Assembly (NCBI GenBank): GCA_015064345.1
Contig: SVSK01000008.1
Location: forward strand, 1 to 52,324
DNA from: Oscillospiraceae bacterium
GTDB lineage: Bacteria; Bacillota; Clostridia; Oscillospirales; CAG-272
Reading direction: 5' to 3'
DNA: 52,324 nt
Shown here one piece after another: positions 3,419 to 45,434 of the stretch. A program made the translations under genes and the position numbers. The notes beneath the pieces were generated by a model that was not told the origin of the DNA, searched no databases, and saw only the letters and a list, made by a program, of their open reading frames with translations. How positions within the stretch are numbered: the stretch's first letter is position 1; every line of letters starts with the position of its first letter.

Positions 3419-3442
3419 AAAGACCCCGAAAGGGGTTTTTTG
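3419..3442 (+). terminator. Rho-independent terminator after the XRE membrane regulator
   Basis: CCCC-GAAA-GGGG stem with flanking A and a run of six T. The same stem and loop occurs after potD at 16787-16812. Confidence 0.9.
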
Positions 3443-3507
3443 AGTTATGAGTTATAAGTTATTGGTTATGGGTTTGAATAAAACTATTTATATTAATTGA
3501 GGTAAAT

Positions 3508-3894
3508 ATGGCTGTATCAAAACGCAGGGCGCGACTCTGCTACTGTATCGCGTCGGCTGCACTGCTTTTGCTTATCGTGTTCATTGCTATGTTTGTGCAT
3601 GACAGATTTGTCAGACCATACGGGGGAGATGTGCTTATCACTATTTTCATCTGCTGTTTTGTTAGAATATTTTTCCAGGGCAAGATAAAGCTCTTACCGA
3701 TATGGGTATTTCTCTTTGCCGTGGCGGTTGAAGTCGGACAGTATTTCGGAATAGTTGACATAATCGGCCTTGGGCATATTCGCTTTTTCAGAATCCTCAT
3801 TGGAACGTCATTCTCATGGGCGGATATTATTTGTTACGCGGTCGGCTGTGGCATTTTTTGCTTCGCAGAGTTATATTGTCGCAAACGACAGTGA
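3508..3894 (+). CDS. DUF2809 family membrane protein
   Basis: 128 aa with four hydrophobic segments. The family hallmarks are visible: 'RPYGGDVL' after the first membrane span, 'VFLFAVAVEVGQYFGIVDIIGLG' (core VEVGQYF) and 'ILIGTSFSWADIICYAVG' (core GTSFSWADI). DUF2809 proteins are small VanZ-like membrane proteins of unknown role. Start ATG 3508 follows GAGGTAAAT. The gene stands alone between two simple-sequence tracts; no operon partner is apparent. Function is not known and I do not propose one. Confidence 0.85.
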   Translation: MAVSKRRARLCYCIASAALLLLIVFIAMFVHDRFVRPYGGDVLITIFICCFVRIFFQGKIKLLPIWVFLFAVAVEVGQYFGIVDIIGLGHIRFFRILIGTSFSWADIICYAVGCGIFCFAELYCRKRQ

Positions 3895-4088: not shown

Positions 4089-5102
4089 ATGGCACAGAAG
4101 GACACTAATCCATATATTTTTTCCGATTCAAATAAGCGGTATATGACATACGACTGGTACATGAAAAAACGATTTGGCGGCAAGGTGGCAAAGGTCACCG
4201 TTGACATCGGATGCACCTGCCCCAACATTGACGGCACTCGCGGTCACGGCGGCTGTATTTACTGCAAATCGGGCAGCAGAAGTGCTATCGGTGAAACGGT
4301 TGCAGAGCAGTACAAAAACGGAGTAGAGATCGCTTGCCGCAAGTGGAAGCCTGTGGGGTTCATTCCCTATCTTCAGGCCAACACCAACACCTACGGGGAT
4401 GTGGAAAAGCTTTCCCGTGCTTACCGCGATGCCGCAGGACTGGATGGAGCTGTAATGCTGGATATCGCCACTCGCGCGGACTGCCTCACCGATGAGATAA
4501 TAGCCGAGCTTGAGACGGTGGCGCGACAGATCCCGCTGACTGTGGAGCTGGGACTTCAGACCTCAAACGATGCTACCGCTGAGCGGATAAACCGCTGTCA
4601 CACCTTTGCGGAGTTTGTGGACGGGTACACCCGACTTCGCGCGGCGGCGGAGAGAGTAAATGCTGAGTTTCCCACAGACGGGGAGCTGCCCATGAAGCGG
4701 TTTCTCATTTGCGTGCATATAATCAACGGTCTTCCGGGTGAGGGTGAGGCTGAAATGATGAAAACAGCAGAGGACATCTCAGCCCTCGCGCCCGATATGA
4801 TAAAAATTCACCTGATGCACGTTCTGCGTGACACAGCACTGGGGGATATGTACCTCCGCGGAGAGTACACCCCGATGAATCGCGACGACTATGTTCGAGT
4901 AACCTGCGATCAGCTTGAAATATTGCCAAGAGAGACGATAATTGCCCGCATCACCGGCGACGGCGTGGCAGACGATCTGCTTGCACCCCAGTGGAGCAGG
5001 CGGAAAACAGAAGTGGCGAATGAGATCGACAAGGAACTCTTCCGAAGAGGAACGTATCAGGGCGCGGGGCTTAAAGAAAAAAGAATAAATAAAAAAGAAT
5101 AA
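4089..5102 (+). CDS. TIGR01212-type radical SAM protein (YtqA/YhcC-like)
   Basis: 337 aa. The [4Fe-4S] cluster motif of this branch is at residues 44-59: C44-x11-C56-x2-C59 within the typical context 'CPNIDGTRGHGGCIYC'; an extra C42 is also present. Further family blocks are 'FIPYLQANTNTYG', 'ELGLQTSNDATAERINR' and 'HIINGLPGE'. Radical SAM enzymes use the cluster to cleave S-adenosylmethionine and start radical chemistry; the substrate of this subfamily is not established to my knowledge. Start ATG 4089 follows GGGAGGAGC. The last six codons (KRINKKE region) run into an AATAAA/GAATAAA simple tract, so the C-terminus may be repeat-derived. Four identical 18-bp repeats lie in the leader. Confidence 0.9.
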   Translation: MAQKDTNPYIFSDSNKRYMTYDWYMKKRFGGKVAKVTVDIGCTCPNIDGTRGHGGCIYCKSGSRSAIGETVAEQYKNGVEIACRKWKPVGFIPYLQANTNTYGDVEKLSRAYRDAAGLDGAVMLDIATRADCLTDEIIAELETVARQIPLTVELGLQTSNDATAERINRCHTFAEFVDGYTRLRAAAERVNAEFPTDGELPMKRFLICVHIINGLPGEGEAEMMKTAEDISALAPDMIKIHLMHVLRDTALGDMYLRGEYTPMNRDDYVRVTCDQLEILPRETIIARITGDGVADDLLAPQWSRRKTEVANEIDKELFRRGTYQGAGLKEKRINKKE

Positions 5103-5140
5103 AGAATAAAGAATAAATAGAAGAAACGCGAAGAGTTTTA

Positions 5141-13935: not shown

Positions 13936-14771
13936 GCAAAAAACGCAAAATAAGCTCATCCCTCGGGCTTCTCCCAATGTATCTCTTCACATTGGTGTTC
14001 GTGCTTGGGCCGCTGATATTTATGATCGCGCTGTCGTTTTTTGAGCAGGACGGATGGTCTTATAGGGCTGTCTTCACTCTTGACAACTACAAAAACGCCC
14101 TCACGGGAACTTATCTCGAGATACTTTTCTCATCTCTGCGTCTGGCGGTGATCTCCACAGCGGCAGTCATCATTCTCGGCTATCCTTTCGGACTTTGCAC
14201 CGCCTTTCTCCCAAAGAGAATGCAGAAATTCATCATGACAACGCAGATGATCCCTTACTGGGTCAACTCGCTTCTTAGGCTCTACGGCTGGATCATCATT
14301 TTCCGTGCAAATGGGCTTCTTGACAAGCTGCTCATGTGGCTGGGGATCACCGAGGAGCCGCTGAGACTCCTTTACACCTACCCCGCGGTGGTGGTCGGCA
14401 TGATATACGTGCTCATTCCGTTCATGTTTGCCTCCGTTTATCAGGTGGCAGAGCGGCTTGACACCTCTCTCATCGAGGCGGCACGGGATCTTGGTGCGTC
14501 TCCTATTCGTGCGTTTCTTTCCGTTACGCTTCCCCTGACTCTCCCCGGGCTGAAAACGGGTATCATCCACACTTTCATTCCCTCAATGGGGCTGTTCTTC
14601 ATTGCGGACATCCTCGGCGGCAACAAGATCGTGCTGACAGGCAGTCTGATAAACGATCTATTAAACAAGGCCCACGATCAGCCTCAGGCCGCGGCTCTTG
14701 CCTCAGTTATGATGGTGCTGACCGCCGCTATTTGTATTCTTCTTTTGAGGAGGGCCAAGTATGAAAGATAA
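13932..14771 (+). CDS. potB: Spermidine/putrescine ABC transporter permease
   Basis: 279 aa with six predicted membrane spans. The EAA loop that docks to the ATPase reads 'SLIEAARDLGASPIRAFLSVTLPLTLPG' (core EAARDLGAS). 'WVNSLLRLYGWIIIF' is a typical PotB segment. It forms the heterodimeric channel with PotC. Its start codon overlaps the potA stop and its end overlaps potC by eleven bases, a compact coupled arrangement; the GAGGAGG preceding potC lies inside this gene. Confidence 0.95.
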   Translation: MSKKRKISSSLGLLPMYLFTLVFVLGPLIFMIALSFFEQDGWSYRAVFTLDNYKNALTGTYLEILFSSLRLAVISTAAVIILGYPFGLCTAFLPKRMQKFIMTTQMIPYWVNSLLRLYGWIIIFRANGLLDKLLMWLGITEEPLRLLYTYPAVVVGMIYVLIPFMFASVYQVAERLDTSLIEAARDLGASPIRAFLSVTLPLTLPGLKTGIIHTFIPSMGLFFIADILGGNKIVLTGSLINDLLNKAHDQPQAAALASVMMVLTAAICILLLRRAKYER

Positions 14772-15579
14772 AATGACCCCGAAAAGCAGAAGAAAAGCGC
14801 GACCCCTTGCTATCTACCCCCTTATAATGACCCTTGTGACCTACCTGCCCATCTTTGTGGTGGCGGTTTACTCCTTTAACGAGAGCAAGCTATCCTCCAT
14901 TTGGGGCGGATTTTCCCTGAAATGGTACGAGGAGCTATTCTATGATGATGCGATCTTCGAGGCGCTGCTCAATTCGGTATTTCTCGCCTCTGCTTCGTCC
15001 ATTATTGCGGCGATAATTGCCACATCTGCGGCGCTGTCTATTGAAAAGGCACGACTCCCGCTCAAAGGAGCTGTGGAAAAGCTATCCCTTATGCCGCTGA
15101 TCATTCCCGAAATTATCCTCGGCATGGTGCTGCTCGCATTTTTCACCCTGCTGGGCTTGCCATTCGGTATGCTGACTCTGCTTATCGCGCATACTACCTT
15201 CTGCGTGCCGTATATTTACAATCAGGTAAAGGCGCGACTTTCCGTTATGGACAAGTTTGCCATTGAAGCGGCGCGGGACCTTGGTGCTTCCCGTATGCAG
15301 GCGTTCTTTACGGTGACTCTCCCCATGCTTGCCCCTGCCATTGTGTCGGGTATGTTCCTCTCATTCGCCATGAGCTTTGACGACGTTATCATTTCCGTGT
15401 TCGTTACGGGAGTCAGAGTGAACACCCTGCCCATCATCGTTTACACCTCACTCAAAACAGGCGTCACCCCCAAGATCAACGCTCTGTGCACCCTTATGCT
15501 TGCCGTGACGGTGCTGTGCTACATCATTGCCGGAGCGATAAAGGGAAAAAAGAATACGAGCGCTGCGCTAAAAGAATAA
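14761..15579 (+). CDS. potC: Spermidine/putrescine ABC transporter permease
   Basis: 272 aa, six membrane spans, partner of PotB. The EAA loop is 'FAIEAARDLGASRMQAFFTVTLPML' (core EAARDLGAS), and 'SFDDVIISVFVTG' is characteristic of PotC. The start ATG 14761 follows TGAGGAGGGCCAAGT. The final residues 'SAALKE' with the TAA stop are encoded by a gene-edge repeat (AGCGCTGCGCTAAAAGAATAA) that also provides the end of RNase R in this window, so the native C-terminus has probably been replaced or extended. Confidence 0.95.
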   Translation: MKDKMTPKSRRKARPLAIYPLIMTLVTYLPIFVVAVYSFNESKLSSIWGGFSLKWYEELFYDDAIFEALLNSVFLASASSIIAAIIATSAALSIEKARLPLKGAVEKLSLMPLIIPEIILGMVLLAFFTLLGLPFGMLTLLIAHTTFCVPYIYNQVKARLSVMDKFAIEAARDLGASRMQAFFTVTLPMLAPAIVSGMFLSFAMSFDDVIISVFVTGVRVNTLPIIVYTSLKTGVTPKINALCTLMLAVTVLCYIIAGAIKGKKNTSAALKE

Positions 15580-15615
15580 AGAATAAAGAATAAAGAATAA
15601 AGAAAAAAGAAAAAT

Positions 15616-21800: not shown

Positions 21801-21952
21801 AATAAATATCAGTGCAGTAGAAGACTTTTGCCATCCTCCCGGTGCACATTTTCTTTATTATTTATTCTTTTTTATTTATTATCTATTCTTTTTCACACAT
21901 TTGTGGTATAATCTAAAAAAACGCACCTGTGAGGTACAAAATGAAGAAAATT
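21801..21952. repeat. Duplicated upstream region, copy 2
   Basis: Second copy of 19640-19785, including the GACTTTTGCCATCCTCCCGG block, TTTTTCACACATTTGTGG, TATAAT and CGCACCTGTGAGGTACAAA, placed directly before the GH106-like gene. Confidence 0.92.
21904..21912 (+). promoter_or_regulatory. Extended -10 promoter of the GH106-like gene
   Basis: TGGTATAAT in the duplicated upstream region; same distance to the start codon as in copy 1. Confidence 0.7.
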
Positions 21953-24874
21953 ATTGACGAGATCAGAGAAATATCTCCCGAGTACGCCAGTATTCCATTC
22001 TGGAGCTGGAACGACAAGCTTGAAGAAGAGGAGCTTCGCCGACAGATACGCGATATGAAGTCTCTCGGCATGAAGGGCTTTTTCATGCACGCCCGCGGAG
22101 GTCTTCTCACAGAATATATGTCTGACGAGTGGTTCGACTGCATTGACGCCTGCATAGACGAGGCTGAAAAGCTCGGCATGGAGGCTTGGGCGTACGACGA
22201 AAACGGTTGGCCCAGCGGATTTGCAGGGGGTGTGCTGCTCAAGGACAAGAAAAACCACGCAGTTGCAATCGAATACCGCTTCGGAGCATTCCCCGAAATG
22301 GACGAGGACATTATCTCCGTTTACATAAAGAACGAGGACGAATCATTTACTCGCGTTACCGAGGACATAGGTGCAAAGGAATACCTCATTCTCTACAAGA
22401 GATACGACGAGAGCTACGTTGACACCCTGAATCCCGATATCGCGGATCAGTTTATTGCGGCAACTCACGAGGAATACAAGAAGAGGATCCCTGCTGACAA
22501 GTTTGGTGAGGGTAAGCCCATGCCCGGATTCTTCACCGACGAGCCTCAGTACTACCGTTGGGGCAGCACTTACTCAAACACTCTTCCTGCGAAGTTTGAG
22601 GAGACATACGGCTACTCCATTTTTGATAAGCTTCCCGCTATTTTCTTCAATTTCGACGGTGCTGACAAGTTCCGTTTCGACTACTACTACCTCATCCACA
22701 AGCTGTTTATAGACGGTTTTATTAAGAAGCTCTACGAGTGGTGCGTGGAAAACAAGGTGGAATTGACCGGCCACGCAGTTGAGGAGACAACGCTCGACTA
22801 TCAGCTCATGTGTACCGGCAGCGTTATGCCCTTCTACGAATACGAGACCATCCCCGGTGTTGACTATCTCGGCAGACAGATTGAAGACGACCTTTCATTC
22901 AAGCAGCTTGGCTCTGTCTGCGCACAGCTTGGCAAGAAGAAGGCTATCTCCGAAATGTTCGCCTGCTGCGGTTGGGCGGTATCTCCCACAGAACTGAAAA
23001 AAGTAGCTGAAGTTCAGTACGCATCCGGCGTCAACATGATGTGCCAGCACCTGTACCCCTACTCCGAGAGAGGCCAGAGAAAGACTGACTATCCCCTCCA
23101 CTACTCCGAGCACAACCCCTGGTCCGCGAATATGCGTGAGTTCAACGATTATTACACAAACCTTGGTGCTATCCTCTCCCGCGGAGTTGAATACGCTCCC
23201 GTGCTTGTAATTCACCCTGCCCACGGCGCCTTCTGTAAGTACCGCAAGAGCACATACTCCCTTAAGGAGATTGAAGACAAGCTCTTTGAAATGTCACGTC
23301 TGTTGGGCGACAATCAGGTTCCCTACCACTATGGAGACGAGTGGATGATGGAGCGCATGGCTGAGGTTAAGGGCGGCAAGATTAAGGTTGGTCTTTGCGA
23401 GTATGAGGCGATCATTGTGCCCTTTACTTACTCACTTGACACAAATACAGTAAAGCTTCTGCGCGAGTTTATGGATCAGGGCGGCAAGATATGGCTCTAC
23501 GACGGCGTACCTCCTTACGTTGACGGTGAAGCTGCGGGGGACAAGCTGGATTTCCTCCATTCAACCGCTACACGGGAAGAGATCTTCGCCTACCGCGATG
23601 CTGTAGTAACTGAAAACGGCAAAAATATCCCCGGATTTCGCAAAATGACCCGTCTCACCGATGATGGCAGAATAGTTTACCTCACAAGCACAGGCGAGGC
23701 GGCACACTGCCCCGTAAAGGTAAGCCTCCCCGCAGGCAGTTGGGCGGAGCTTGACGTGGCAACCCTTGAAGTGAAGCCTGTGGCACAGCGCGCTACCGAA
23801 AATGGCGTGGACGTGTACCTCTCCTTTGAGGATGGCGAGTCTCACGTGCTTATAGAGCGTGATATTGCAACATACGAGCACTTGCCAATTCCTGCGTTCC
23901 CCACAGAATTTATCCCCGTTCCCGAAAAGGTTCGTCTTGCTGAAAAGCCCGAGAACATCATGACTCTCGACATGCCTGCGTACTCCTTCGACGGCGAAAA
24001 TTACGAAGAGCCACTCTACATCATGGGTGTCCGTGATATGCTCCTTCGTATGCGCCACGAGGGCAAGGTGTATCTGAAGTTCAACTTCAAGGCTGAAACA
24101 GCACCGAAAACACTCAAGCTGGTGGCAGAGCCCATGTATGAGCGCATCACAGTCAACGGCACTCCCGTAACACCGAACGGGGATTGGTGGTTTGACCGCT
24201 CATTCACCGTAATGGACGTAGCAGAGCAGATCAAGGCTGGCGAGAACGAGATAATCGTGGAAGTTAACCACTACCAGAGCGACTACGTTTACTATGTCCT
24301 CTACGGCGGGGTTTCCGAGGCACTTCGCAACTGTATCGTGTTTGACACAGAGATCGAGTCCATGTATCTGGTTGGCGACTTCGGTCTGCGACTTGACGGA
24401 GAGGTAACAGAGGGAGAACGTGAGTCCACTCTGTTTGACGGCGAGTTTACAATGACTGCGCTTTCCGATACGGTTTCCTCTACCGATGCGGTTACCGACG
24501 GATATCCTTTCTTCGGCGGATCTATGGAGCTCGAGTTCGACTACGACTACAAGGACGGTGACGCGACTGTTCTGAAGCTTGACGGCAGATACGCAACAGC
24601 TGAGGTGACCGTTGGCAACGTAACGAAGAAGATCATGTGGAAGAACACGATCGATCTTTCCGACGTTCTGAATGTGGGCAAGAATACCATCCGAGTAAAG
24701 CTTACCTGCGCTATGCGTAACACAATGGGCCCACACCACTATATAGAAGACGAGCTTCTCATCGTGGGTCGCCAGATGTGGACCTTTGAGAACGAGTGGG
24801 ACGGACGTGAATGCCCCGTTTACAAGAAGAGATACTCATTCGTGAAGTTCGGAATGAAGAAGCATGAAAAGTAA
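21941..24874 (+). CDS. GH106-like glycoside hydrolase (alpha-L-rhamnosidase-related)
   Basis: 977 aa without a signal peptide, so likely cytoplasmic. The N-terminal TIM-barrel region shows the strongly conserved start of this group: 'IPFWSWND', 'DMKSLGMKGFFMHARGGL', 'WFDCIDACIDEAEKLGMEAWAYDENGWPSGFAGG' (core AWAYDENGWPSG). Later come 'GFFTDEPQY', 'LTGHAVEE' and 'KKAISEMFACCGWAVSP', candidate active-site acids in the family. The C-terminal third has beta-sandwich features ('VMDVAEQIKAGENEIIVEVNHY', core AGENEIIVEV) like galactose-binding domains. The family includes alpha-L-rhamnosidases acting on plant pectin; substrate here is inference. Start ATG 21941 follows GAGGT. It shares its promoter and leader with the phosphoesterase gene, implying co-regulation. 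Confidence 0.8.
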   Translation: MKKIIDEIREISPEYASIPFWSWNDKLEEEELRRQIRDMKSLGMKGFFMHARGGLLTEYMSDEWFDCIDACIDEAEKLGMEAWAYDENGWPSGFAGGVLLKDKKNHAVAIEYRFGAFPEMDEDIISVYIKNEDESFTRVTEDIGAKEYLILYKRYDESYVDTLNPDIADQFIAATHEEYKKRIPADKFGEGKPMPGFFTDEPQYYRWGSTYSNTLPAKFEETYGYSIFDKLPAIFFNFDGADKFRFDYYYLIHKLFIDGFIKKLYEWCVENKVELTGHAVEETTLDYQLMCTGSVMPFYEYETIPGVDYLGRQIEDDLSFKQLGSVCAQLGKKKAISEMFACCGWAVSPTELKKVAEVQYASGVNMMCQHLYPYSERGQRKTDYPLHYSEHNPWSANMREFNDYYTNLGAILSRGVEYAPVLVIHPAHGAFCKYRKSTYSLKEIEDKLFEMSRLLGDNQVPYHYGDEWMMERMAEVKGGKIKVGLCEYEAIIVPFTYSLDTNTVKLLREFMDQGGKIWLYDGVPPYVDGEAAGDKLDFLHSTATREEIFAYRDAVVTENGKNIPGFRKMTRLTDDGRIVYLTSTGEAAHCPVKVSLPAGSWAELDVATLEVKPVAQRATENGVDVYLSFEDGESHVLIERDIATYEHLPIPAFPTEFIPVPEKVRLAEKPENIMTLDMPAYSFDGENYEEPLYIMGVRDMLLRMRHEGKVYLKFNFKAETAPKTLKLVAEPMYERITVNGTPVTPNGDWWFDRSFTVMDVAEQIKAGENEIIVEVNHYQSDYVYYVLYGGVSEALRNCIVFDTEIESMYLVGDFGLRLDGEVTEGERESTLFDGEFTMTALSDTVSSTDAVTDGYPFFGGSMELEFDYDYKDGDATVLKLDGRYATAEVTVGNVTKKIMWKNTIDLSDVLNVGKNTIRVKLTCAMRNTMGPHHYIEDELLIVGRQMWTFENEWDGRECPVYKKRYSFVKFGMKKHEK

Positions 24875-24914
24875 AGAATAAAGAAAAAAGAATAAAGAAA
24901 AAAGAATAAATATA

Positions 24915-27739: not shown

Positions 27740-27811
27740 GGGGAAATAAGTGACAGATAACTTATATCCTATTAGTTACAACTTATCACTTATAACCCAT
27801 CACTCATAACT

Positions 27812-28126
27812 TTAATACTGTTTCGCTGTGAGCTCGATGATCTTGTCCATGTCATCATCCTTTGCAGCCTTGTTTCTGCGAATGGCGCCGCATTTTCTGC
27901 ATTTGTGGTAGATGATGAACCCCTTTTTCGGGTCGGGCTCGGCGGAGATGGGGTCCATTATTCCCTCACAACCTGCCGCGCGGTCTCCCGGGTTGATGTC
28001 GAGATGCAGGGAGGAAAGGCACTTCGGGCAGTGATTGCGGGAGGTGTATCCAAGGGGCGGAACTTCATTACCGCAAGCGGCACAAATGAAGCTGTCGTCG
28101 TTTTTTGTGAATCGTTTTGTTTCCAT
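27812..28126 (-). CDS. RNHCP domain zinc-ribbon protein
   Basis: 104 aa. The signature 'SRNHCPKCLSSLH' gives the domain its name; with 'FICAACGNEVPP' at the start, 'GCEGIMDPI' and 'YHKCRKCGAIRRNKAA' there are three CxxC pairs, which should bind zinc. RNHCP proteins are common in Firmicutes and their role is not established to my knowledge. ATG 28126 has a moderate site (AAGGAG upstream, read on the minus strand). It is divergent from the secreted protein gene at 28228 and not obviously part of the marR unit, from which it is separated by about 70 bases after its own stop. Confidence 0.9.
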   Translation of the reverse strand: METKRFTKNDDSFICAACGNEVPPLGYTSRNHCPKCLSSLHLDINPGDRAAGCEGIMDPISAEPDPKKGFIIYHKCRKCGAIRRNKAAKDDDMDKIIELTAKQY

Positions 28127-28636: not shown

Positions 28637-28712
28637 TTTTGCGTTAGCAAAAATATCACTGCGCCAGCAATATCACTTTCGCGTGGCGAAATATCACTTG
28701 CCGAAGGCTATA
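28637..28712. repeat. Mini-hairpin array with ATATCAC linkers
   Basis: TTTTGC-GTTA-GCAAAA, a degenerate GCGCCAGCAA unit, TTTCGC-GTG-GCGAAA and TTGCC-GAA-GGCTA, separated by ATATCAC. The last unit overlaps the stop codon of the lipid kinase gene (28708-28710). Related to the array at 47111-47206, where the linker reads GTGATG. Confidence 0.85.
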
Positions 28713-29682
28713 TCGCCGCGTACCAGAGAGCACCGGGGATGACTTCAAGCTCAACAGTCTTGTCGTCCCCTGTGTCGTAGATCTCGCCGTCAAGGCAGAA
28801 GCGGTCAACACCGGTGAGGGTCATCTTGCGGCAACGGTGGTAGGAGAGAATATCCAAAAATTTCTTGCCAAGCTTGCCATCTTCACTTATGAAGTCGCCC
28901 TTGCGGTAGTTTCCCACAACGGAGATGAACTTGAGTCTCGACACGTCGTTTACGATGAGCACATCCATGAGTCCGTCGCTGATGGACGCAAGAGGAGCAG
29001 CCTTGAAACCGCCGCCGTAGAACTTTGAGTTGGCGCAAGCGGAGAGAAGCACTCGCTTTTCAACAGAAAAATCGTCAACAGGCTCGCCTGTGGCAATATC
29101 AACAGATCCCTCGAGAGTAATCTTTGCAGGGATCGTTTTCTTTACAGCCAGCACCTTTGCAACGCCTGCTATGTAAGACATCTTGCCGCGGAAAAGTGGC
29201 TTTTTCTTCAGAGTGTAAGTCTCCCACACAACGTCGCAGTCAAATCCCACGTTTGCCATGTTGGCACAGTAGCGCACAACTCCGTCGCAGGTGGTCTTGA
29301 TAAGGTCTATGCGGGAAAGATCGGTTTTTGGCAGGTCTCCCGAGTCGTTGACGTAAGCGGAGAAATCATTACCGCTTCCCATGGGATAGACGGAGAATGA
29401 TGCCGTATCCACAGCACCTGAAAGCATGATTCCGTTAACCGCTTCGTTTACGCTTCCGTCGCCGCCGTATATCACAGCGTGAGCAAAGGGATCTGACTTG
29501 AACAGCTCGCACACCAGCTCGGTAATTGAGCCGCAGTGCTGGCTGATCTGCATTTCGCCTCCCTCTTTCTCAACGGCACGGCGTGCGGCATCGAAGTATC
29601 CGGGCTTGCCTGAGGCAGGATTGAGAATATGTACAACACGTCGGCTGCCGATCTTTGGGGTGGCTGATAAGGTTGGATTCAT
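28708..29682 (-). CDS. Diacylglycerol kinase family lipid kinase (YegS/BmrU-like)
   Basis: 324 aa. DAGK catalytic-domain motifs are clear: 'HILNPASGK' (phosphate loop), 'VIYGGDGSVNEAVNGI' (the GGDGT-type nucleotide site, here GGDGS) and 'YPMGSGNDFSAYV' (GSGNDFxR-type site). The C-terminal half is the expected beta-sandwich with 'SDGLMDVLIVND' and 'LDGEIYDTGD'. The enzyme would phosphorylate a membrane lipid such as diacylglycerol using ATP. ATG 29682 starts 17 bases after the DUF6472-like gene, so the two are cotranscribed. The stop codon lies in a mini-hairpin array, so the final residues (AAI) may be repeat-derived. Confidence 0.92.
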   Translation of the reverse strand: MNPTLSATPKIGSRRVVHILNPASGKPGYFDAARRAVEKEGGEMQISQHCGSITELVCELFKSDPFAHAVIYGGDGSVNEAVNGIMLSGAVDTASFSVYPMGSGNDFSAYVNDSGDLPKTDLSRIDLIKTTCDGVVRYCANMANVGFDCDVVWETYTLKKKPLFRGKMSYIAGVAKVLAVKKTIPAKITLEGSVDIATGEPVDDFSVEKRVLLSACANSKFYGGGFKAAPLASISDGLMDVLIVNDVSRLKFISVVGNYRKGDFISEDGKLGKKFLDILSYHRCRKMTLTGVDRFCLDGEIYDTGDDKTVELEVIPGALWYAAI

Positions 29683-29908: not shown

Positions 29909-29993
29909 AGTTATGAGTTATGAACTATGAGTTATGAGTTTTTGGTTGCAGGGTGGAACTAATAACTTATAACCCATAACTTATAACTTTTTC
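29909..29993. repeat. GTTATGAGTTAT-type inverted simple repeat
   Basis: GAGTTATGAGTTATG on the left and AACTTATAACCCATAAC on the right can pair into a long imperfect hairpin. The right arm is also the 3' end of the cca coding sequence. Confidence 0.7.
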
Positions 29994-31187
29994 TTTCAGT
30001 GCTTCTCTCTCGTTCTCCACGTCTCCCATGATGACCGCGTCGAGAAGCTTGTCCAGTGTCTGACCTATCGCTCTGCCTGTTAGTCCGAGACTCATGAGGT
30101 CAGTTCCGTTTATCTTAAGATCCGACACCCGGCGGGGCTTGTTTTCGGAGATTATCCGCTCTGAAATGCGTGAAATTTCAGCGGACGCATCCTCTGTGAT
30201 CCTGCCCGTGACGTGCTCGTATCTTCCGAGGAGGGAGGGGAAAGAGTCGGTTGTCTTGCCCATCAGTCGAATGATCGACAGCTCGTCGAAATCTGCCCAT
30301 CCACGATGCTTCAAAAATCTGCCGAGGGCGCGGGACTCTTCTCTGGACGGCTTGAGGGAGGCGAAAACTCGGTTTCCATCCTCTTCCGTAAGGTTTTCCA
30401 GCAGCGCGGCATATCTCATTTCGGAAATAGGCTCCCCGCCTGTTTTTTCGTCGTTTTTGATGATCTCAGCTCCATGCGAGACACATTCGCCATCAATTCC
30501 AAGGGAGTGAGCGACAACGTCTGCATATTCACCGAGGATCCGCGAAGCACCGCCGCCGCAAATCAGCTTTGTCAGCTCAACGTAGATCCTCTCGCGGGAG
30601 ATCTTGTCGAGCAGATGCTTCAGTTCATGCACCGCCGCGGCACATTCGTCATCGGGAGTGAACTCGAGAACTGACGAAAATCTCAGCGCGCGAAGAATAC
30701 GCAGTCCGTCCTCGGAGAAGCGTTCAACTGCTCTGCCTACGCAACGGATAGTCTGCTTTTTTATGTCCTCGCAACCGCCGAACAGATCCACCAGTCCTCG
30801 TTCGGGGGAGTATGCCATGGCGTTTATGGTGAAATCCCGTCGGCAAAGGTCATCGGAGAGCTTGTCCGTGAACGTGACCGAGTCGGGATGCCGTCCATCC
30901 TCGTACGTTCCGTCGATTCGGTAGGTGGTGACTTCTATATTCATGCCGTCAAGTACAACGGTGAGAGTGCCGTGCTTCAGTCCTGTTTCCACCACACGGC
31001 AGTCGGAAAAGACCTCTACCATTTCGTTGGGCTTTGCAGAGGTCGTGACGTCGTAATCTTTTGGTGTGACGCCCATTATTGAATCCCGCACGCATCCGCC
31101 GACAGCATAGGCATGGTAGCCGTTCTCCTCAAGTCTGTGAAGGACAAATGACACGGGCGCGGGAAGGGGCATGGTGAAGTTTGGCAT
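29967..31187 (-). CDS. cca: CCA-adding tRNA nucleotidyltransferase
   Basis: 406 aa class II nucleotidyltransferase that adds or repairs the 3' CCA end of tRNAs. 'AVGGCVRD' at residues 28-35, the catalytic D44-x-D46 in 'TPKDYDVTTS', 'RRDFTINAMAY', and the nucleotide-selecting 'RFSEDGLRILRALRF' are all present; the C-terminal half is the helical tRNA-binding body. I use ATG 31187, eight bases after TTGGAG; a TTG at 31199 overlaps that site. The final eight residues EKVISYGL are encoded by a GTTATAAGTTAT-type repeat and are nearly the same as the end of Nth next door. A 14-bp tandem repeat separates cca from nth. Confidence 0.93.
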   Translation of the reverse strand: MPNFTMPLPAPVSFVLHRLEENGYHAYAVGGCVRDSIMGVTPKDYDVTTSAKPNEMVEVFSDCRVVETGLKHGTLTVVLDGMNIEVTTYRIDGTYEDGRHPDSVTFTDKLSDDLCRRDFTINAMAYSPERGLVDLFGGCEDIKKQTIRCVGRAVERFSEDGLRILRALRFSSVLEFTPDDECAAAVHELKHLLDKISRERIYVELTKLICGGGASRILGEYADVVAHSLGIDGECVSHGAEIIKNDEKTGGEPISEMRYAALLENLTEEDGNRVFASLKPSREESRALGRFLKHRGWADFDELSIIRLMGKTTDSFPSLLGRYEHVTGRITEDASAEISRISERIISENKPRRVSDLKINGTDLMSLGLTGRAIGQTLDKLLDAVIMGDVENEREALKEKVISYGL

Positions 31188-31204
31188 AATGGACTCCAAG
31201 GGGT

Positions 31205-31258
31205 GAGTTATGGGTTATGAGTTATGGGTTATGAGTTATGGGTTATGAGTTATGGGTT
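31205..31258. repeat. 14-bp direct tandem repeat
   Basis: GAGTTATGGGTTAT repeated almost four times (three complete units 31205-31246 and twelve bases of a fourth) followed by inverse AACTTATAAC sequence that runs into the nth coding region. Confidence 0.95.
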
Positions 31259-31274
31259 GGGGGCAACTTATAAC

Positions 31275-31913
31275 TTATAGTTTATAACTTATAACTTTTT
31301 CGCATTCATGCGCCAGAGGGCATTCATCGCATCTCGGGCTTCTTGCCATGCAGTATTCCCTGCCGAACAGCACCATTCTGTGGCAATAGTCCGACTGCTC
31401 CTCAGGCGGCACGATGGATGAGAGTATTTTCTCGCATTTTGCGGGATCTTTCAGCTCTTCGGGATAGAAGCCGAATCTGCCGTTTATTCTGATGCAGTGA
31501 GTGTCCGCAACAATACCGGGCTTGCCGAAAATGTCGCCGAGGATCAGGTTGGCGATCTTTCTGCCCACACCCGGTAGCGAGAGCAGCTCGTCCATGGTGT
31601 CGGGCACTTCTCCGTCGAAATCGGTGATGATCTGCTGTGACATCTCAATACAGCTTCTTGCTTTTGTTCTGTAAAGACCGCAGGAGCGAATGAGTTCTTC
31701 AACCTCGGTCTGAGATGCAGCCGCCATGGACCATACGTCGGGGAAGCGACGGAAAAGCGGTCCGCAGACGATATTCACCCGCTCATCGGTACACTGTGCC
31801 GATAGTCGAGCCGCGATCAGCAGCTTCCACGGGTCCCCGCCGTACTCCAGCGAGCAGATTGCCTCGGGATATATTTCTTTCAAAATTTCGATTATCTTAT
31901 GTATGTTAGGCAT
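31275..31913 (-). CDS. nth: Endonuclease III (DNA glycosylase/AP lyase)
   Basis: 212 aa. It removes oxidised pyrimidines from DNA and cuts the abasic strand. 'LPGVGRKIANL' is the helix-hairpin-helix with catalytic K119, and D137 in 'VADTHC' is the second catalytic residue. The iron-sulfur loop is C188-x6-C195-x2-C198-x5-C204, the exact family spacing. Directly after C204 the sequence runs into EKVISYKL, encoded by a GTTATAAGTTAT-type repeat, and is nearly identical to the end of Cca. ATG 31913 has no good ribosome binding site; the upstream DNA is itself a GTTATGAGTTATGAG repeat, so insertion of the repeat may have altered the start region. Confidence 0.93.
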   Translation of the reverse strand: MPNIHKIIEILKEIYPEAICSLEYGGDPWKLLIAARLSAQCTDERVNIVCGPLFRRFPDVWSMAAASQTEVEELIRSCGLYRTKARSCIEMSQQIITDFDGEVPDTMDELLSLPGVGRKIANLILGDIFGKPGIVADTHCIRINGRFGFYPEELKDPAKCEKILSSIVPPEEQSDYCHRMVLFGREYCMARSPRCDECPLAHECEKVISYKL

Positions 31914-31992
31914 ATGATTTAAGTTATGAGTTATGAGTGATGGGTTGTGAGTTTAGGTAATAGGTAATAGGAAAGAAGTAAGAGGTGTGGAA

Positions 31993-32023: not shown

Positions 32024-32039
32024 ATTTTTTATTTATTAT

Positions 32040-34169
32040 CTATTCTTTATTCTTTTCTTCTGCCATTTCCGCAAGTTCATCTGCGAAGTAGTAGTCGAAG
32101 ACGTCGCGGACTGCGTAGCCTGCCTGTGTTCCGCCGTAGCCTTGCTCGATGATACAGGTCACAACGATCTCAGGCTCTTCAAAGGGAGCAAATGCTGTGA
32201 TGATACCGTTGTCTGACTTGTTTGCGTATACCTGTGCTGTACCCGTTTTACCGCCGACGGAGATATCGTAATTTCTGAATACAGATGCCGCCGAGCCGTT
32301 GTCCATAACCCCGCGCATTCCTTCCTTGACTGTGTTGAGGATCTCGTCGGAGATAGCGATTCCGTCAACCTCGACAGGAGTACGGTTGTAGATTATTTCG
32401 CCTGTTGCGTAATCTCTGACCTGATACAGCATGCTTGCGTTGTATCTTGTGCCGCCGTTGAGGACAGTTGCAAGGTAAACGCTGATCTGCAGAGGCGTGA
32501 ACTGGTTATCCGACTGACCGATGGCCGCCTGGATGGTGTCACCGGGGGACCACTGACCGAGACCGTTTTCCGCACGGTAATCGGGACCTGCAAGAATACC
32601 AACCCTCTCCGGCAGCTCGATACCTGTAGGCTGACCGAGGCCGAGATGACGGCAGTATTCATTCATTTTGGATATAGTAAGCAGTCTGCCTACCTCGTAG
32701 AAGAAGCAGTTGCAGGATTCCTGGATCGCCTCCACAACATTTATCTCGCCATGGACCGACTGCCCCTCGCTCATAAGGTACAGCCAGCAACGGGGAGTAA
32801 AGTTTGCGGACTCGTAGTATGTATAGATACCCTTTGTTTCGATGACTGTTTCCTTGGTGATTATTTCCTCGGAGAGTGCCGCCACGGCTACACCGATCTT
32901 GAATGTGGAACCGGGGGCATATTCGCCGTTGAGAGCGCGATTGAACATGGGTGAGAGGGGGTCGTTGTTGAGATTTGCAAAGTCCTCGTTGAAGGTTGCA
33001 AGGTTGTACGTCGGATATGAACAGATGGCCAGCACCTCGTAAGTATCCACGTCAAGCACGGTCAGCGCGCCTTTTTCCGCATCCTCACCTGTGAGCGGCT
33101 TGTCGGGGTCTGCCTCATTGCGTATTTTGAAGATATTCTCAGCCAGCGCACGCTCCGCAACCATTTGCATCTCGATGTCAATGGTCAGGCAAACGTCGTT
33201 GCCGGGTACGGGCTCCTTTATCATTTCGGTGCTGACAATATTACCGTATGCGTCCTCGGTGATCTTCATCGTACCGTCCACGCCGCGGAGATAGCTTTCA
33301 AAAGCCGCCTCTGCTCCTGAAATTCCCACTATTGCATCAAGGGGGTAGCCCAGTTCTGTGTAATATTCTTCCTGTCCGGAGGGAATCTTGCCGATTCGAC
33401 CGAGTATGTGGGAAGCGTAGCCGGGGTAGAGATATTTTCTTGCGTAGTCGGTAGTCACGGTGAATCCGCGGCTGTGCTTTTCCGTAAGTGAGGTTATGAG
33501 AGTAAGGGAAGCGTCCTCTGCAATAACGTAAGGCTGTACTGCAGAGAATCCGGAGAGCTCCATGTCAAGTCGAATGAGGAAGAGCTCTTTCGCCAAGGGG
33601 TAAGTGTAGTTGTAATAGGTCTCGTATTTGCCTGTGTCCTCGTTCTTTTCCTTTGTCATGATGCCGAAGTACACCATCAGTGCCTTTGCCTCATCGTTCA
33701 CGCTTGCACCGTCGGCCACGTTAAGCTGTGAGATCAGCTTGGAGTATCTTCTGCCGCGGACAGTGTCGAGAAATCCGTCGGGGTAGGTGAAATCAAGGCC
33801 GCCCGAGAGTACCTCGACATTGAGGGAAGACTTTGCCGTGACCAGCTTGTCTCCCGTTTTTGTTGCGGCGTTGATAATATCTACGATAAGATCGTTCAGC
33901 TCCTTGCCCGCCTTCGGCTTTGTCTGGTAGTCGAGGGAGATGTCGTATGTATAGTCATTCACTACGAGGGGTTTGCCGTTTCTGTCGAAAATTTCGCCTC
34001 GCTGTGCCTGTACAGTGACGTTTCTTGTGTAATAAACGGTGGGAGTGGACATACTGTAATAGTCCTGACCCGACACCTGAAGATAAAGGAGTCTGCCTAT
34101 GTAAGCGATCGCCACCAGCGTGAAGAAAACGCCCAGCGCCACAATACGCCAGAGATTGTTGTTTTTCAT
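32040..34169 (-). CDS. mrdA: Penicillin-binding protein 2 (class B transpeptidase)
   Basis: 709 aa. A single membrane span near the N-terminus (residues about 8-28) is followed by the class B dimerisation region ('RGEIFDRNGKPLVVNDYTY', core RGEIFDRNGKPL) and the transpeptidase domain with the S421-T-F-K acyl site in 'YAPGSTFKIG', the SCN motif in 'QESCNCFFYE' and K641-TG in 'VGGKTGTAQ'. It cross-links peptidoglycan, most likely in lateral wall growth with a RodA-type polymerase, which is not in the window. ATG 34169 lies seven bases after GGGGAGG; ATG 34175 is too close to that site. The C-terminus ends EEKNKE inside an AATAAA/GAATAAA tract. Confidence 0.92.
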   Translation of the reverse strand: MKNNNLWRIVALGVFFTLVAIAYIGRLLYLQVSGQDYYSMSTPTVYYTRNVTVQAQRGEIFDRNGKPLVVNDYTYDISLDYQTKPKAGKELNDLIVDIINAATKTGDKLVTAKSSLNVEVLSGGLDFTYPDGFLDTVRGRRYSKLISQLNVADGASVNDEAKALMVYFGIMTKEKNEDTGKYETYYNYTYPLAKELFLIRLDMELSGFSAVQPYVIAEDASLTLITSLTEKHSRGFTVTTDYARKYLYPGYASHILGRIGKIPSGQEEYYTELGYPLDAIVGISGAEAAFESYLRGVDGTMKITEDAYGNIVSTEMIKEPVPGNDVCLTIDIEMQMVAERALAENIFKIRNEADPDKPLTGEDAEKGALTVLDVDTYEVLAICSYPTYNLATFNEDFANLNNDPLSPMFNRALNGEYAPGSTFKIGVAVAALSEEIITKETVIETKGIYTYYESANFTPRCWLYLMSEGQSVHGEINVVEAIQESCNCFFYEVGRLLTISKMNEYCRHLGLGQPTGIELPERVGILAGPDYRAENGLGQWSPGDTIQAAIGQSDNQFTPLQISVYLATVLNGGTRYNASMLYQVRDYATGEIIYNRTPVEVDGIAISDEILNTVKEGMRGVMDNGSAASVFRNYDISVGGKTGTAQVYANKSDNGIITAFAPFEEPEIVVTCIIEQGYGGTQAGYAVRDVFDYYFADELAEMAEEKNKE

Positions 34170-35360: not shown

Positions 35361-37130
35361 TTGCGATATTTACGACTGATAATCATCCTGCTGGCGGTGC
35401 TGATTCTTGCCCTACCTGTAGCGGCTGACTTAGAAAAGGACGGAAAAATCATCGTTGCCATCGACCCCGGTCACGGCGGAATTGACGGTGGCTCAGACAA
35501 GGGCACGTATCCGGAAAAATACTACAACATGAAGCTTTCCGAATATCTGCGCGACGCCCTTGAAGCGGACGGCAGATTTACTGTGGTACTTACCCGCGAA
35601 ACGGATATTTATCTCAAATATCTTCCCCGCGTAAAGGTGGCAAAGGATGCACACGCGGACGTTATCATCTCCATGCACTGCAATACTATCGAATATTCCT
35701 ACATAGACGGCTCCTCTGCCTACATTTCCCTTATTGAGCGTTTTCGCGCTGACAAGCTGGCAGGTATGCTCCTTGACGCCATCTCTGAGGCAAGCACCAT
35801 ACGTCGCGGTCAGGTATACACAAGACAGGACACGGGAGACAAGTACGGTGTTTACTACTGGGATTACGAAAAACAGTGGGATATGCCCGGTGCCCGGTGG
35901 CTTGGCAAGGTGAGCGACTATTATTCCATTAACACATGGGGTTCAAAGTTCGGAATTCCGTCAATAATAATAGAGCACGGATATCTTACCAACGCTGCAG
36001 ACTTGGCGGTGCTTAATTCCGATGCAAATCTCCGTGCGATCGCGCAGGCAGAAGCGGATGCAATCATTGAATACTACACGAACCACGAGCACGTATTCGG
36101 GGAATACACCGTTGATTGCCCGTCAAACTGCACTTTCACGGGTACGGAATCGAGAAAATGCACGATCTGCGGTGCGAAAAGCGGTGTGCGTGATCTTCCC
36201 GCTGCTCCCGACAACCATTTCTGGCGACAGACTGCCTCTGCGGCGATGACTTGCGAGTCTGACGGGTTTATTTCGTACGTTTGCCAGATCTCATTCAATG
36301 TAAATGACAAGGGTTACCCATGCACGGTACATGAGTACACCAAAACAGACACGGCTCCGGGCCACGATTATTTGGTGATCGAGGACTCCGAGCCCACCCA
36401 TGACACCGACGGTAAGTATCACGCCAAATGCAACACCTGTGGCAAGGAAATAGTTGAGATCCGAAGCGGCGAGGGGCACAACTGGGATGTAACGTCGGAA
36501 ACACTCCCCACCTGCGTTTCTGACGGCGAGAGACATTCCCTCTGCTCCGTTTGCGGTTTGACGAAGGATGAAATACTCCCTGCGCTGGGTCACTCCTACG
36601 AGGTCACGGAGGACAGGGAAGCTACCCACATCGAAGACGGAATCTTCCGTCAGGTTTGCTCCACTTGCGGTAAGGAGATCACTGAGCCTAGACCTGCCGA
36701 GGGACACATCTTTGAGGTGACTCAAGAGATTCTGCCGTCCTGCACCATCGCGGGCAAGCGGGTTATGAAGTGCTCGGTTTGCGGGGAGCGGTGTGAAGAG
36801 GAGATACCTGCCATCGGCCACGTTTCGGCGGTCAGCGAGGACGGAGATACCACGGTGTGCTCACTCTGCGGTGCGATACTTGAGGAGAAGCAGGAGTCGA
36901 GTACGGCCGTTATCATTATTGCCGCGGCTTGCATTTGCCTCATCGCGGGAGCGGGAATATTCGTGATCGTTACCCGCACAAAGAAGCCGAGGTCGGCTTT
37001 TGACATCACTCTGACACCTAAAGCACAGGTTGCTGACGAGGATCAAGACGAGGACGAAGAAGACGATGAAGCTGAATCCGAACCCGAGCCCATACGCGTT
37101 GAGTACGACGAAGCGACGAATGATTTATAA
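35361..37130 (+). CDS. N-acetylmuramoyl-L-alanine amidase with Cys-pair repeats and C-terminal anchor
   Basis: 589 aa. A signal sequence (LIIILLAVLILALPVAA) leads into an Amidase_3 domain: zinc ligand H38 in 'AIDPGHGGIDGGS', E52 in 'TYPEKYYN', the later H in 'IISMHCN', and the catalytic E in 'PSIIIEHGYLTN'. It would cleave the stem peptide from muramic acid. Residues about 240-500 are roughly 35-residue repeats of the form C-x2-CG ... GH ... PTC/SC...DG, with six CxxCG-type pairs (CTICG, CNTCG, CSVCG, CSTCG, CSVCG, CSLCG). A membrane span (VIIIAAACICLIAGAGIFVIV) and an acidic tail close the protein. I choose TTG 35361 because TAGGAG lies seven bases upstream and it gives a proper signal peptide; ATG 35322 would be nearly leaderless. 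Confidence 0.87.
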   Translation: MRYLRLIIILLAVLILALPVAADLEKDGKIIVAIDPGHGGIDGGSDKGTYPEKYYNMKLSEYLRDALEADGRFTVVLTRETDIYLKYLPRVKVAKDAHADVIISMHCNTIEYSYIDGSSAYISLIERFRADKLAGMLLDAISEASTIRRGQVYTRQDTGDKYGVYYWDYEKQWDMPGARWLGKVSDYYSINTWGSKFGIPSIIIEHGYLTNAADLAVLNSDANLRAIAQAEADAIIEYYTNHEHVFGEYTVDCPSNCTFTGTESRKCTICGAKSGVRDLPAAPDNHFWRQTASAAMTCESDGFISYVCQISFNVNDKGYPCTVHEYTKTDTAPGHDYLVIEDSEPTHDTDGKYHAKCNTCGKEIVEIRSGEGHNWDVTSETLPTCVSDGERHSLCSVCGLTKDEILPALGHSYEVTEDREATHIEDGIFRQVCSTCGKEITEPRPAEGHIFEVTQEILPSCTIAGKRVMKCSVCGERCEEEIPAIGHVSAVSEDGDTTVCSLCGAILEEKQESSTAVIIIAAACICLIAGAGIFVIVTRTKKPRSAFDITLTPKAQVADEDQDEDEEDDEAESEPEPIRVEYDEATNDL

Positions 37131-37191
37131 GTTATGAGTTCACTATTTTTCCTTGGCCAGAAAGTAGTATCAGATCCAAAAGCCATGCTTT

Positions 37192-41213: not shown

Positions 41214-41227
41214 GTTATAAGTTATGA

Positions 41228-41308
41228 TTGCCTACGGCAAGTTATGAGTGATGAGTTCACTTCGTGAACGTTGCGGAAACTTTTCTTATCCTTTCAGGAA
41301 TCGAAAAG
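41228..41308. repeat. Mini-hairpins and family E repeat after mnmG
   Basis: TTGCC-TAC-GGCAA (41228-41240), GTTCAC-TTC-GTGAAC (41255-41269), then an E copy ACTTTTCTTATCCTTTCAGG to GAAAAG (41278-41308). Confidence 0.8.
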
Positions 41309-44034: not shown

Positions 44035-45333
44035 ATGAAGATTTCCAGGCACATCCGCGACCTTTGCCGTCAGGCTGAGCGTGACATGGCGGATATTTAC
44101 AGCGACATTGACAGAATTTCCGAGGAGAACACAGAGCATGTGCTGGACTGCTTCCGCGAATGTGAAGTGTCCGAGGCTCTCTTTGCCCCCTCGACAGGCT
44201 ACGGCTACGGTGACAGAGGCCGTGACATGATCGACACCCTTGCCGCAAAAGTGTTCCGCGCACCTGCAGGATTTATGCGCCCTGCATTCATGTCAGGCAC
44301 ACACACTATTGCCGTTGCACTTTTCGGCATCCTTCGCCCGGGAGATATCCTCCTTTCCATTACCGGCACGCCTTACGATACGCTTCTTGACGTTATCGGT
44401 ATCGGCACAGCTCCTGCGGGAGAGGGTTCACTGAAGGACTTCGGTGTAAGATTCGAGAAGGTGGAGATGACAGATGGCGAGTACCCAATGGACATGGACG
44501 GACTCCGCGCGGCACTGGAAAAGTTTGGTGACGCCGTAAAGGTGGTTTACGTTCAGCGTTCCAAGGGATATGCGGGCAGACCTACCCTCACATCCTCCGA
44601 GATTCGCCGCGCCGCATACTTTACCGAGAAATTCGCCCGCGAGCTTGGTATAAAGAAGCCTGTTTTCATGGTTGACAACTGCTACGGTGAATTTACTGAG
44701 ACGACCGAGCCCTGCTACCTGCCCCCCATGGCTGAAAACGAAGCGGCGGCAGACATCATCATCGGCTCGCTCATCAAGAATCCCGGCGGCGGTATGGCTG
44801 ACATCGGCGGATACATCGTAGGTGAGGAAGAGGCAGTTCGTCTTTGCGGAAATCGTCTCTCCTGCCCCGGAGTGGGACTTGACGTAGGCGCATCCCTCGG
44901 TCAGAATCGCAACCTTATCAAGGGCCTGTTCTACGCGCCTCACACAGTTGCACAGGCAATGAAGACTGCTCACCTTGCGGCGTATATGTTTGAATACATG
45001 GGCTACACCGTTTCTCCCAGATGGTTTGAGCGCCGTGCTGATATCGTTCAGTGTGTTGAGTGCGCTTCTCCTGCGGGACTTTCCGCGTTCTGTCTCGGTA
45101 TTCAGTCCGCTTCCCCCATTGATGCCCACGTTGTTCCCGAGGCTTGGGAGATGCCCGGCTACGCTGACCCCGTTATCATGGCGGCAGGTGCGTTTACAGG
45201 CGGCTCGTCCATTGAGCTTTCCGCTGACGGACCTATGCGCCCACCGTACACCGCGTTCATGCAGGGCGGCCTTACATACGAAAGTGCCCGACTTGCGATA
45301 ATGGCAGCAGCGGAACGGATGAAGGAGTTATGA
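44035..45333 (+). CDS. Methionine gamma-lyase family protein (PF06838, 'aluminium resistance')
   Basis: 432 aa PLP enzyme. 'STGYGYGDRGRD' and 'RPAFMSGTHTIAVALFGILRPGD' (core MSGTHTIAVALFGIL) are typical; K248 in 'IGSLIKNPGGG' should carry PLP, and 'VFMVDNCYGEFTE' supplies the Asp that contacts the pyridine nitrogen. The family is close to cystathionine/methionine lyases but its true substrate is not well established, and the 'aluminium resistance' name is historical. ATG 44035 follows CGGAG. It stops at a GTTATGAGTTGT tract. Confidence 0.9.
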   Translation: MKISRHIRDLCRQAERDMADIYSDIDRISEENTEHVLDCFRECEVSEALFAPSTGYGYGDRGRDMIDTLAAKVFRAPAGFMRPAFMSGTHTIAVALFGILRPGDILLSITGTPYDTLLDVIGIGTAPAGEGSLKDFGVRFEKVEMTDGEYPMDMDGLRAALEKFGDAVKVVYVQRSKGYAGRPTLTSSEIRRAAYFTEKFARELGIKKPVFMVDNCYGEFTETTEPCYLPPMAENEAAADIIIGSLIKNPGGGMADIGGYIVGEEEAVRLCGNRLSCPGVGLDVGASLGQNRNLIKGLFYAPHTVAQAMKTAHLAAYMFEYMGYTVSPRWFERRADIVQCVECASPAGLSAFCLGIQSASPIDAHVVPEAWEMPGYADPVIMAAGAFTGGSSIELSADGPMRPPYTAFMQGGLTYESARLAIMAAAERMKEL

Positions 45334-45434
45334 GTTGTAAGTTGTAAAGCAGCTTGCAGTTTAATATTTCACACAAAACATGCGTGAAAATGTTAAATTT
45401 TTGTCCTTATTATCTGTTTCACCAAGAAAAAACA

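Follow-up and report, generated by a model that had tools for sequence, protein, structure and literature searches.

The CCA-adding enzyme (Cca) and endonuclease III (Nth) of an Oscillospiraceae bacterium end in nearly the same eight residues, and this shared tail is likely to be a by-product of 7-nt tandem arrays, here called heptad arrays, which lie across both stop codons and are anchored at gene edges. The shared tail itself is real, and it is probably neutral. An earlier note on this DNA had taken the tail as the outcome of repeats invading, or being converted into, the 3' ends of two unrelated genes, and this interpretation is partly supported by the analysis given below.

Genes and tails in the source assembly

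The source assembly (G000; Oscillospiraceae bacterium, GCA_015064345.1) has a size of 2.02 Mb (2,017 kb) in 84 contigs and is about 79% complete. The window, i.e. the whole stretch of 52,324 nucleotides that was analysed, belongs to contig C17 in the numbering used here. Both cca and nth are found on the minus strand, with nth upstream and a spacer of 75 nt between the two genes (Table 1).

At the 3' end, cca reads GAA GCA CTG AAA and nth reads GCG CAT GAA TGC. Both genes continue with GAA AAA GTT ATA AGT TAT, followed by GGG TTA in cca and AAA CTA in nth, and both close with the stop codon TAA. The endings EKVISYGL and EKVISYKL, as reported in the earlier note, are read directly in these codons. 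Among 210 distinct C-termini from the G000 stretches, giving 21,945 pairs, Cca and Nth form the sole pair with seven of the eight final residues identical. The runners-up are four pairs with five identical residues, and no pair has six or eight.

The tail is placed outside the folded domains of both proteins. PF13735, the last Pfam domain of Cca, ends at residue 404 of 410 and so reaches into the first two of the tail's eight residues. The iron-sulfur domain of Nth (PF10576) ends at residue 204 of 212, and the tail starts directly after C204, as had been described before.

It was also correctly described that tail and TAA are read from repeat DNA of the intergenic type, as arrays span both stops. 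As a description of this DNA, a tandem array of 7-nt units in several spellings is preferable to a single fixed repeat. Positions 29951-29993 and 31259-31301 form a direct repeat with 84% identity over 43 nt, and GTTATRAGTTAT occurs 12 times in the window where 0.00 occurrences are expected from shuffles. The exact 17-mer AAAAAGTTATAAGTTAT has two places only in the 2.02-Mb assembly, namely the ends of cca and nth; when up to two mismatches are allowed, 4 places match compared with 3 for the reversed pattern used as control, which leaves the exact count alone informative.

Further endings of the EKVISYxL type had been expected elsewhere in the genome. For the full tail DNA this did not hold, as it is unique to cca and nth in the assembly. 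An excess at gene ends was found for heptad arrays in general: in the window, an array with lag 7 is present at 8 of the 33 called gene ends, scanned over a region reaching from 21 nt upstream to 60 nt downstream of the end of the stop codon, while lags 5, 6, 8 and 9 give 0/33 each. A second family of tails in the window (RINKKE, EKNKE, KE) matches the prediction from a second spelling, GAATAAA.

Table 1. Genes and heptad arrays in the window, with positions counted from its first nucleotide.
Feature	Position	Strand	Basis
cca, CCA-adding enzyme / poly(A) polymerase family, 410 aa, tail EKVISYGL	29967..31199	-	Pfam PF01743, PF12627, PF13735
nth, endonuclease III, 212 aa, tail EKVISYKL after Fe-S C204	31275..31913	-	Pfam PF00730, PF10576 (188-204)
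Heptad array over cca stop (GTTATAA/GTTATGG units), encodes KVISYGL and TAA	29957..29989	-	sequence, codons
Heptad array over nth stop (GTTATAA-type units), encodes VISYKL and TAA	31263..31296	-	sequence, codons
Inverted heptad array in spacer after cca; faces cca-stop array, 81% complementary over 32 nt	29909..29940	+	
Outward heptad array adjoining cca start; faces nth-stop array	31198..31263	+	
Outward heptad array, begins 2 nt upstream of nth ATG	31916..31957	+	
GAATAAA array (second spelling) over stop of neighbouring penicillin-binding protein gene, tail EKNKE	32029..32056	-	
GAATAAA array over stop of gene 4143-5102, tail RINKKE	5087..5114	+	
GAATAAA array over stop of gene 14761-15579, tail ends KE	15571..15598	+	
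GAATAAA/GAAAAAA array, starts at stop of gene 21929-24874	24872..24899	+	
GTTATGA/GTTGTAA array over stop of Met_gamma_lyase-family gene, tail ends EL	45327..45347	+	
Short GTTATRA array over stop of Amidase_3 gene, tail ends L	37124..37137	+	
GTTATAA/GTTATGA array with mini-hairpin, begins directly after mnmG stop	41214..41254	+	
Heptad array, starts at stop of RNHCP-domain gene	27753..27812	-	
Heptad array directly 3' of T-tract of terminator-like hairpin, 18 nt past stop of gene ending 3418	3437..3478	+	

A further intergenic repeat is seen by eye at 28640-28720 of the window, where AATATCACT is interspersed with mini-hairpins whose loops measure about 3-4 nt. ATATCAC is present on array-bearing and other contigs of G000 alike. 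By eye, no evident Shine-Dalgarno sequence precedes the assumed ATG of nth in G000 (31914-31957); the corresponding gene of G006, the sister species described below, has GGAAGGAG before its ATG.

Translation of heptad spellings

As 7 = 1 mod 3, three units make up 21 nt or seven codons, and an array therefore runs through all frames. Fifteen heptad spellings were translated, and each yields one circular peptide which is identical over its three forward frames. GTTATAA gives VISYKL and a stop in all three frames, GTTATGA gives VMSYEL and a stop, GTGATGA gives VMSDE and two stops, GAATAAA gives RIKNKE and a stop, and GTAAGAG gives EVRGKR and a stop. Stops are found in all three forward frames of GTTATGA, GTTATAA, GTAAGAR and GAATAAA. 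The exception is GTTATGG, which is without a forward stop and is the source of the G in the SYGL of Cca.

Because peptide and stop are the same in every frame, a gene that ends in a GTTATAA array gets a piece of the VISYKL tail. The identity of the Cca and Nth tails therefore needs no selection at the protein level. Neither does it in itself require that one sequence was copied onto the other, since a 7-nt array spells one peptide in all three frames, and the earlier interpretation is to be corrected on this point. The GAAA which precedes the array at both cca and nth, encoding E and part of K, is common to the two genes and is left unexplained by heptad arithmetic. Whichever frame a gene is in when it enters an array, it is closed within six residues of the circular peptide. 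This means that repeat DNA makes unrelated proteins end alike by a simple rule, at a cost of no more than these six residues for each captured gene end, and shared C-terminal peptides should not be taken for signals.

Tails in related genomes

The nearest genome compared is that of a sister species (G006), in which Nth is 84% and Cca 72% identical to the G000 proteins. Both proteins of G006 carry one tail, different from that of G000, as Nth ends in GRVMSDE and Cca in KRVMSDE, each read from GAGTKATGAGYGATGAGTGA. The arrays of G006 cover the nth and cca stops in the same codon phase as in G000, which suggests that arrays were present at both genes in the common ancestor of the two species. The termini, previously regarded as new, are thus probably not new to the species.

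Tails differ again in other congeners: Nth ends in RSKR in G001 and G013, read from GTAAGAR units, and in ELRGEK in G014. A VISYxL ending was found in none of 29 other Nth proteins (ends were read for 29 of the 55 orthologues found), in none of 40 named Nth proteins (40 of 80 named loci, a set that may overlap the 29) and in none of 28 other Cca proteins (29 loci, 28 of them readable at the end), and the tails are in this respect lineage-specific, as had been proposed. The named relatives are metagenome-assembled genomes (MAGs) of Clostridia from animal guts, mostly ruminant. EVRGKR, the kind of tail predicted by GTAAGAG, closes one protein in G014 (L192) and one in G001 (L200), and the residues preceding it differ.

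In G006, heptads alternate with mini-hairpins having three-base loops, e.g. GGCGAAGCC and TACGCGAAGCGTA, at 2900-3040, 3680-3760 and 5560-5675 of L095 (C41). A penicillin-binding protein (PBP) gene, nth and cca are three successive genes ending in related copies in this genome. The interval between nth and cca (L095 3700-4340) is about 660 nt longer than in G000 and contains a 159-codon reading frame of unassigned kind.

Spelling and abundance of arrays

A GTTATRR pattern of three units with at most one mismatch gives 55 matches in G000, 5 in G006, 1 in G016 and 0 in the other 22 congeners searched. A broader heptad pattern gives 42 matches in G000, 42 in G013, 16 in G014 and 13 in G001, with 0 in the reversed control of each, as also in that of G006. 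For G024 there are 90 matches, but 33 in the reversed control, and the control is likewise high in G027, G048 and G003, so that counts with the broader pattern are unclean for these four genomes. The chief spellings are GTAAGAR in G001, G013 and G014, and GTKAGGA in G024. Period 7 dominates the arrays called by TRF in the heptad stretches of G000 (150.7 kb), with 70 cases; period 14 with 18 and period 9 with 17 come next.

Additionally, gene edges were scanned at orthologous loci (those of nth, cca and a further ten genes), which had not been sampled for arrays, in five congeners chosen for their heptads (G001, G006, G013, G014, G024). An array with lag 7 is found at 21 of 83 gene 3' ends, compared with a single one for lag 11 and none for lags 4-6 and 8-10; at the 5' edges of the same loci it is found in 3 of 48 cases. 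G exceeds C on the outward strand in all 21 arrays (148 G, 17 C). Lag 7 is found at 1/76 gene 3' ends in other congeners, which is not above other lags, at 3/136 on G000 contigs outside the array contigs and at 2/235 in named Clostridia.

Arrays were found at 8 of 31 orthologues of G000 array genes versus 13 of 51 other genes in the same five genomes. As the first fraction is not above the second, an array at the same gene in two species is expected by number alone. Co-occurrence at orthologues was therefore rejected as a sign that arrays are retained; the exception is G006, in which the codon phase matches at nth and cca.

All 55 GTTATRR matches of G000 are located on 10 of the 84 contigs (C17, which holds the window, C32, C41, C46, C50, C51, C64, C72, C77 and C82), covering about 271 of 2,017 kb, and the tested heptad-pair pattern is absent from 21 stretches of other G000 contigs (206 kb). 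Orthologues of genes on C17 and C82 sit on one G006 contig, C55, and the array-bearing contigs may therefore represent one chromosomal domain. A chimeric bin is not supported as an explanation for this clustering: of 10 protein segments taken from array stretches, 9 had their best match in G006 (five genomes compared), as had 12 of 12 from other contigs (seven genomes compared), and the tetranucleotide profiles of array and other stretches overlap.

Two further observations concern individual loci. The genes at L103 (3743-5157) and L106 (7957-8422) have the identical C-terminus GWFENDVFIGEKK; a terminator-like hairpin and a near-identical array come after each of them, and this gene pair is an apparent duplication. 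In L277, from a MAG labelled Anaerolineae, a run of heptads resembling TAACTGA lies upstream of a gene.

Position and polarity at gene edges

The ends of arrays were compared with gene edges using 2000 random placements within the same spacers, on stretches fetched around arrays. The left end is defined as the 5' end on the G-bearing strand. Arrays with both neighbours available number 20 of 23 in G000, 23 of 26 in G013, 8 of 8 in G014, 4 of 4 in G001 and 9 of 9 in G024.

In four of the five genomes tested (G000, G013, G014 and G001), arrays begin at the edges of genes and are directed outward. The left end lies on a same-strand stop for 2/20 arrays in G000 (0.13 expected), 12/23 in G013 (0.38), 6/8 in G014 (0.15), 3/4 in G001 (0.05) and 0/9 in G024 (0.10). 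A gene running into an array ends there by construction, so that overlap is favoured. The G000 count, which refers to strictly seeded arrays, was reached by 13 of the 2000 simulations. A left end within 20 nt of an opposite-strand gene start is found for 5/20 arrays in G000 (0.43 expected), 6/23 in G013 (0.96), 1/8 in G014 (0.32), 0/4 in G001 (0.13) and 0/9 in G024 (0.33). Right ends fall on a same-strand stop, or within 20 nt of an opposite-strand start, for none of the 64 arrays of the five genomes.

By the strict distance test none of the 9 arrays of G024 is flush with a stop or start; 8 of the 9 are nearer to the left gene, and by eye another heptad spelling precedes them. Several arrays of G000 start, again judged by eye, directly after the T-tract of a terminator-like hairpin.

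Proposed origin of the shared tail

Arrays are anchored at gene edges, chiefly at stop codons, from where they run outward with the G-bearing strand leading. The arrays and their arithmetic, the polarity at gene edges and the spelling by species, with tails that differ jointly on both proteins, are direct observations. An array at a protein end would be cheap, as the residues past C204 of Nth and past the last helix of Cca can presumably vary freely, and gene ends should generally tolerate arrays when the last residues are free and any frame is closed quickly. The arrays appear to grow and to be rewritten faster than genes diverge, and for this reason spelling and tail would change together within a species, with VISYxL in G000 and VMSDE in G006. 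Slipped or template-switched replication together with exchange between copies is the most likely manner of writing, and the tails would be without function of their own. All genomes used are drafts, and no array-writing process was observed.

A stronger proposal, which we regard as doubtful, is that several Clostridia of one genus have an active, directional writing of 7-nt units, going outward from stops, terminators or leader ends, with the G-bearing strand first and in a spelling that is set by lineage and periodically replaced. If this were true, many protein C-termini would be rewritten together, and the fixed step of seven at any spelling would reflect the footprint of an enzyme.

Alternative explanations

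It is quite possible, if not the reading that we favour, that in each species separately the 3' ends of the two genes were made alike by local conversion or by a recent copying event in place; heptad arithmetic would then merely keep the tails open and short. In both G000 and G006 each 3' end most resembles that of the other gene and not its orthologue, with identities over tail and downstream sequence of 45/53 (G000) and 47/56 (G006) within a genome against 34/47 and 35/46 between orthologues. The likeness of the nth and cca 3' regions in G006 is 85% over 87 nt and includes non-heptad sequence, a 23-mer common to these two ends has no other place in G006 or G000 at up to three mismatches, and the exact 17-mer of G000 is confined to the same two genes. 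However, two independent arrays with the same spelling look alike anyway, a third and weaker copy (80% over 40 nt) 3' of the neighbouring PBP gene of G006 means that the likeness is not purely pairwise, and uniqueness in genomes that are both about 79% complete is a lower bound. It is unlikely that the arrays form the terminal inverted repeats of a small MITE- or REP-like mobile element which inserts at gene edges. Many spacers have an outward array at each end and thereby facing inverted repeats, and mini-hairpins are found in the G006 copies, but there is no conserved core, as the sequence between facing arrays varies (by eye) across 26 G013 sites. Furthermore, the REP-associated transposase PF01797 is absent from G000 (79% complete) and from the draft genomes G001 and G024, and the 6 of 15 genomes having it include the heptad-poor G007, G008 and G017. 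The presence of this Y1 transposase thus does not track the heptads, and a REP/RAYT mobile origin was rejected.

The arrays could also be kept for an RNA function at gene ends, such as a stem-loop across the stop acting in termination, decay or ribosome release, and this we consider decidedly unlikely. On the gene strand, folding of the two G000 spacers at the tails is stronger than that of shuffles (z -5.0 and -3.75), the tail codons and stop being located in the 5' arm of the folds, while z is -1.6 and -1.2 for the spacers of G006. Between array-bearing and array-free spacers no difference in folding is seen in G000 (9 vs 21 spacers, p 0.82) or G014 (5 vs 16, p 0.18) and a weak one in G013 (17 vs 22, p 0.013), and on these results an RNA hairpin was rejected as the general reason for the arrays. 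It is highly improbable that the tail is a selected signal of Nth and Cca, i.e. a degron, localisation or interaction peptide. Seven of eight residues are identical on two proteins of nucleic-acid maintenance, yet the DNA level accounts for this identity, the residues follow the last domain, other congeners have different tails again and most have no such tail; the protein-signal reading was rejected on the change of tail in G006. The by-product reading, with arrays across both stops, is the one that we retain.

Comparison with known heptamer and small-repeat systems

Heptameric repeats, GGGAATC and GGGGA(C/T)T, have been described in Xanthomonas and Nostoc by Rehm et al. (2015; PMC4692102). 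According to the available part of that paper, these 7-nt units are intergenic, run outward from the gene, in some cases extend over stop codons and lie between the same genes in related species. They contain G-tracts and form G-quadruplexes as oligonucleotides, four units being preferred, and a proposal is cited there that the period of seven reflects polymerase slippage. Judged from this part, the arrays described here are alike in the tandem 7-nt unit, the intergenic place and the outward polarity, which is seen in G000, G013, G014 and G001 and not, by strict distance, in G024. Their spellings (GTAAGAR, GTTATAA, GTTATGA, GATAATA, GAATTAA) are without G-tracts and change wholesale between congeners, unlike the units of Rehm et al. 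The gene strand of the cca and nth arrays has at most one GGG. GGG-bearing runs of GTTATGG occur elsewhere in G000.

MacGregor (2015; PMC4679880) reports TAACTGA direct repeats in Beggiatoaceae, cyanobacteria and some Bacteroidetes. As given in the accessible sections, these repeats have stops in all three frames, 13 sets overlap the stop of the upstream gene, and among the one-base variants in Table 3 of that paper are some that translate as VMSYEL and VISYKL. Stops in all forward frames and overlap with gene ends are likewise found for the arrays here. On the basis of the same sections, TAACTGA is one fixed unit placed mostly just upstream of starts, whereas the arrays here have varied spellings and prevail at gene 3' ends; their units are GTTATRR, GAATAAA, GTAAGAR, GTKAGGA and others, and neither TAACTGA nor its complement. 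Those sections contain no mention of shared tails on unrelated proteins or of a change of tails between species.

In the passages considered, Delihas (2008; PMC2229807) describes how MITEs and further small dispersed repeats supply protein ends by being fused to reading frames; some of these repeats have a stop in every frame. According to those passages, such elements are longer, with conserved bodies and no 7-nt tandem structure, unlike the arrays here. Liang, Rudd and Deutscher are said to have found in 2015 that the palindromic REP elements of E. coli lie within about 15 nt of stop codons. REP elements of E. coli differ in sequence from the arrays here and are RAYT-linked; the likeness is in repeats close to stop codons, and the difference is that G000 has no PF01797 match.

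In the open-licence literature we found neither a description of AT-rich heptads in Clostridia with such polarity nor one of unrelated proteins having a common tail that varies from species to species. That heptamer arrays lie across stop codons, and that they have this polarity at gene edges, is already published (PMC4679880, PMC4692102). The edge polarity of quadruplex-forming heptamers thus recurs with units unable to form quadruplexes, and since the spellings listed above are without G-tracts, quadruplex formation cannot explain the polarity in general. Why bacterial repeats should favour period seven and gene edges is an old question, which therefore becomes testable in a group with many spellings.
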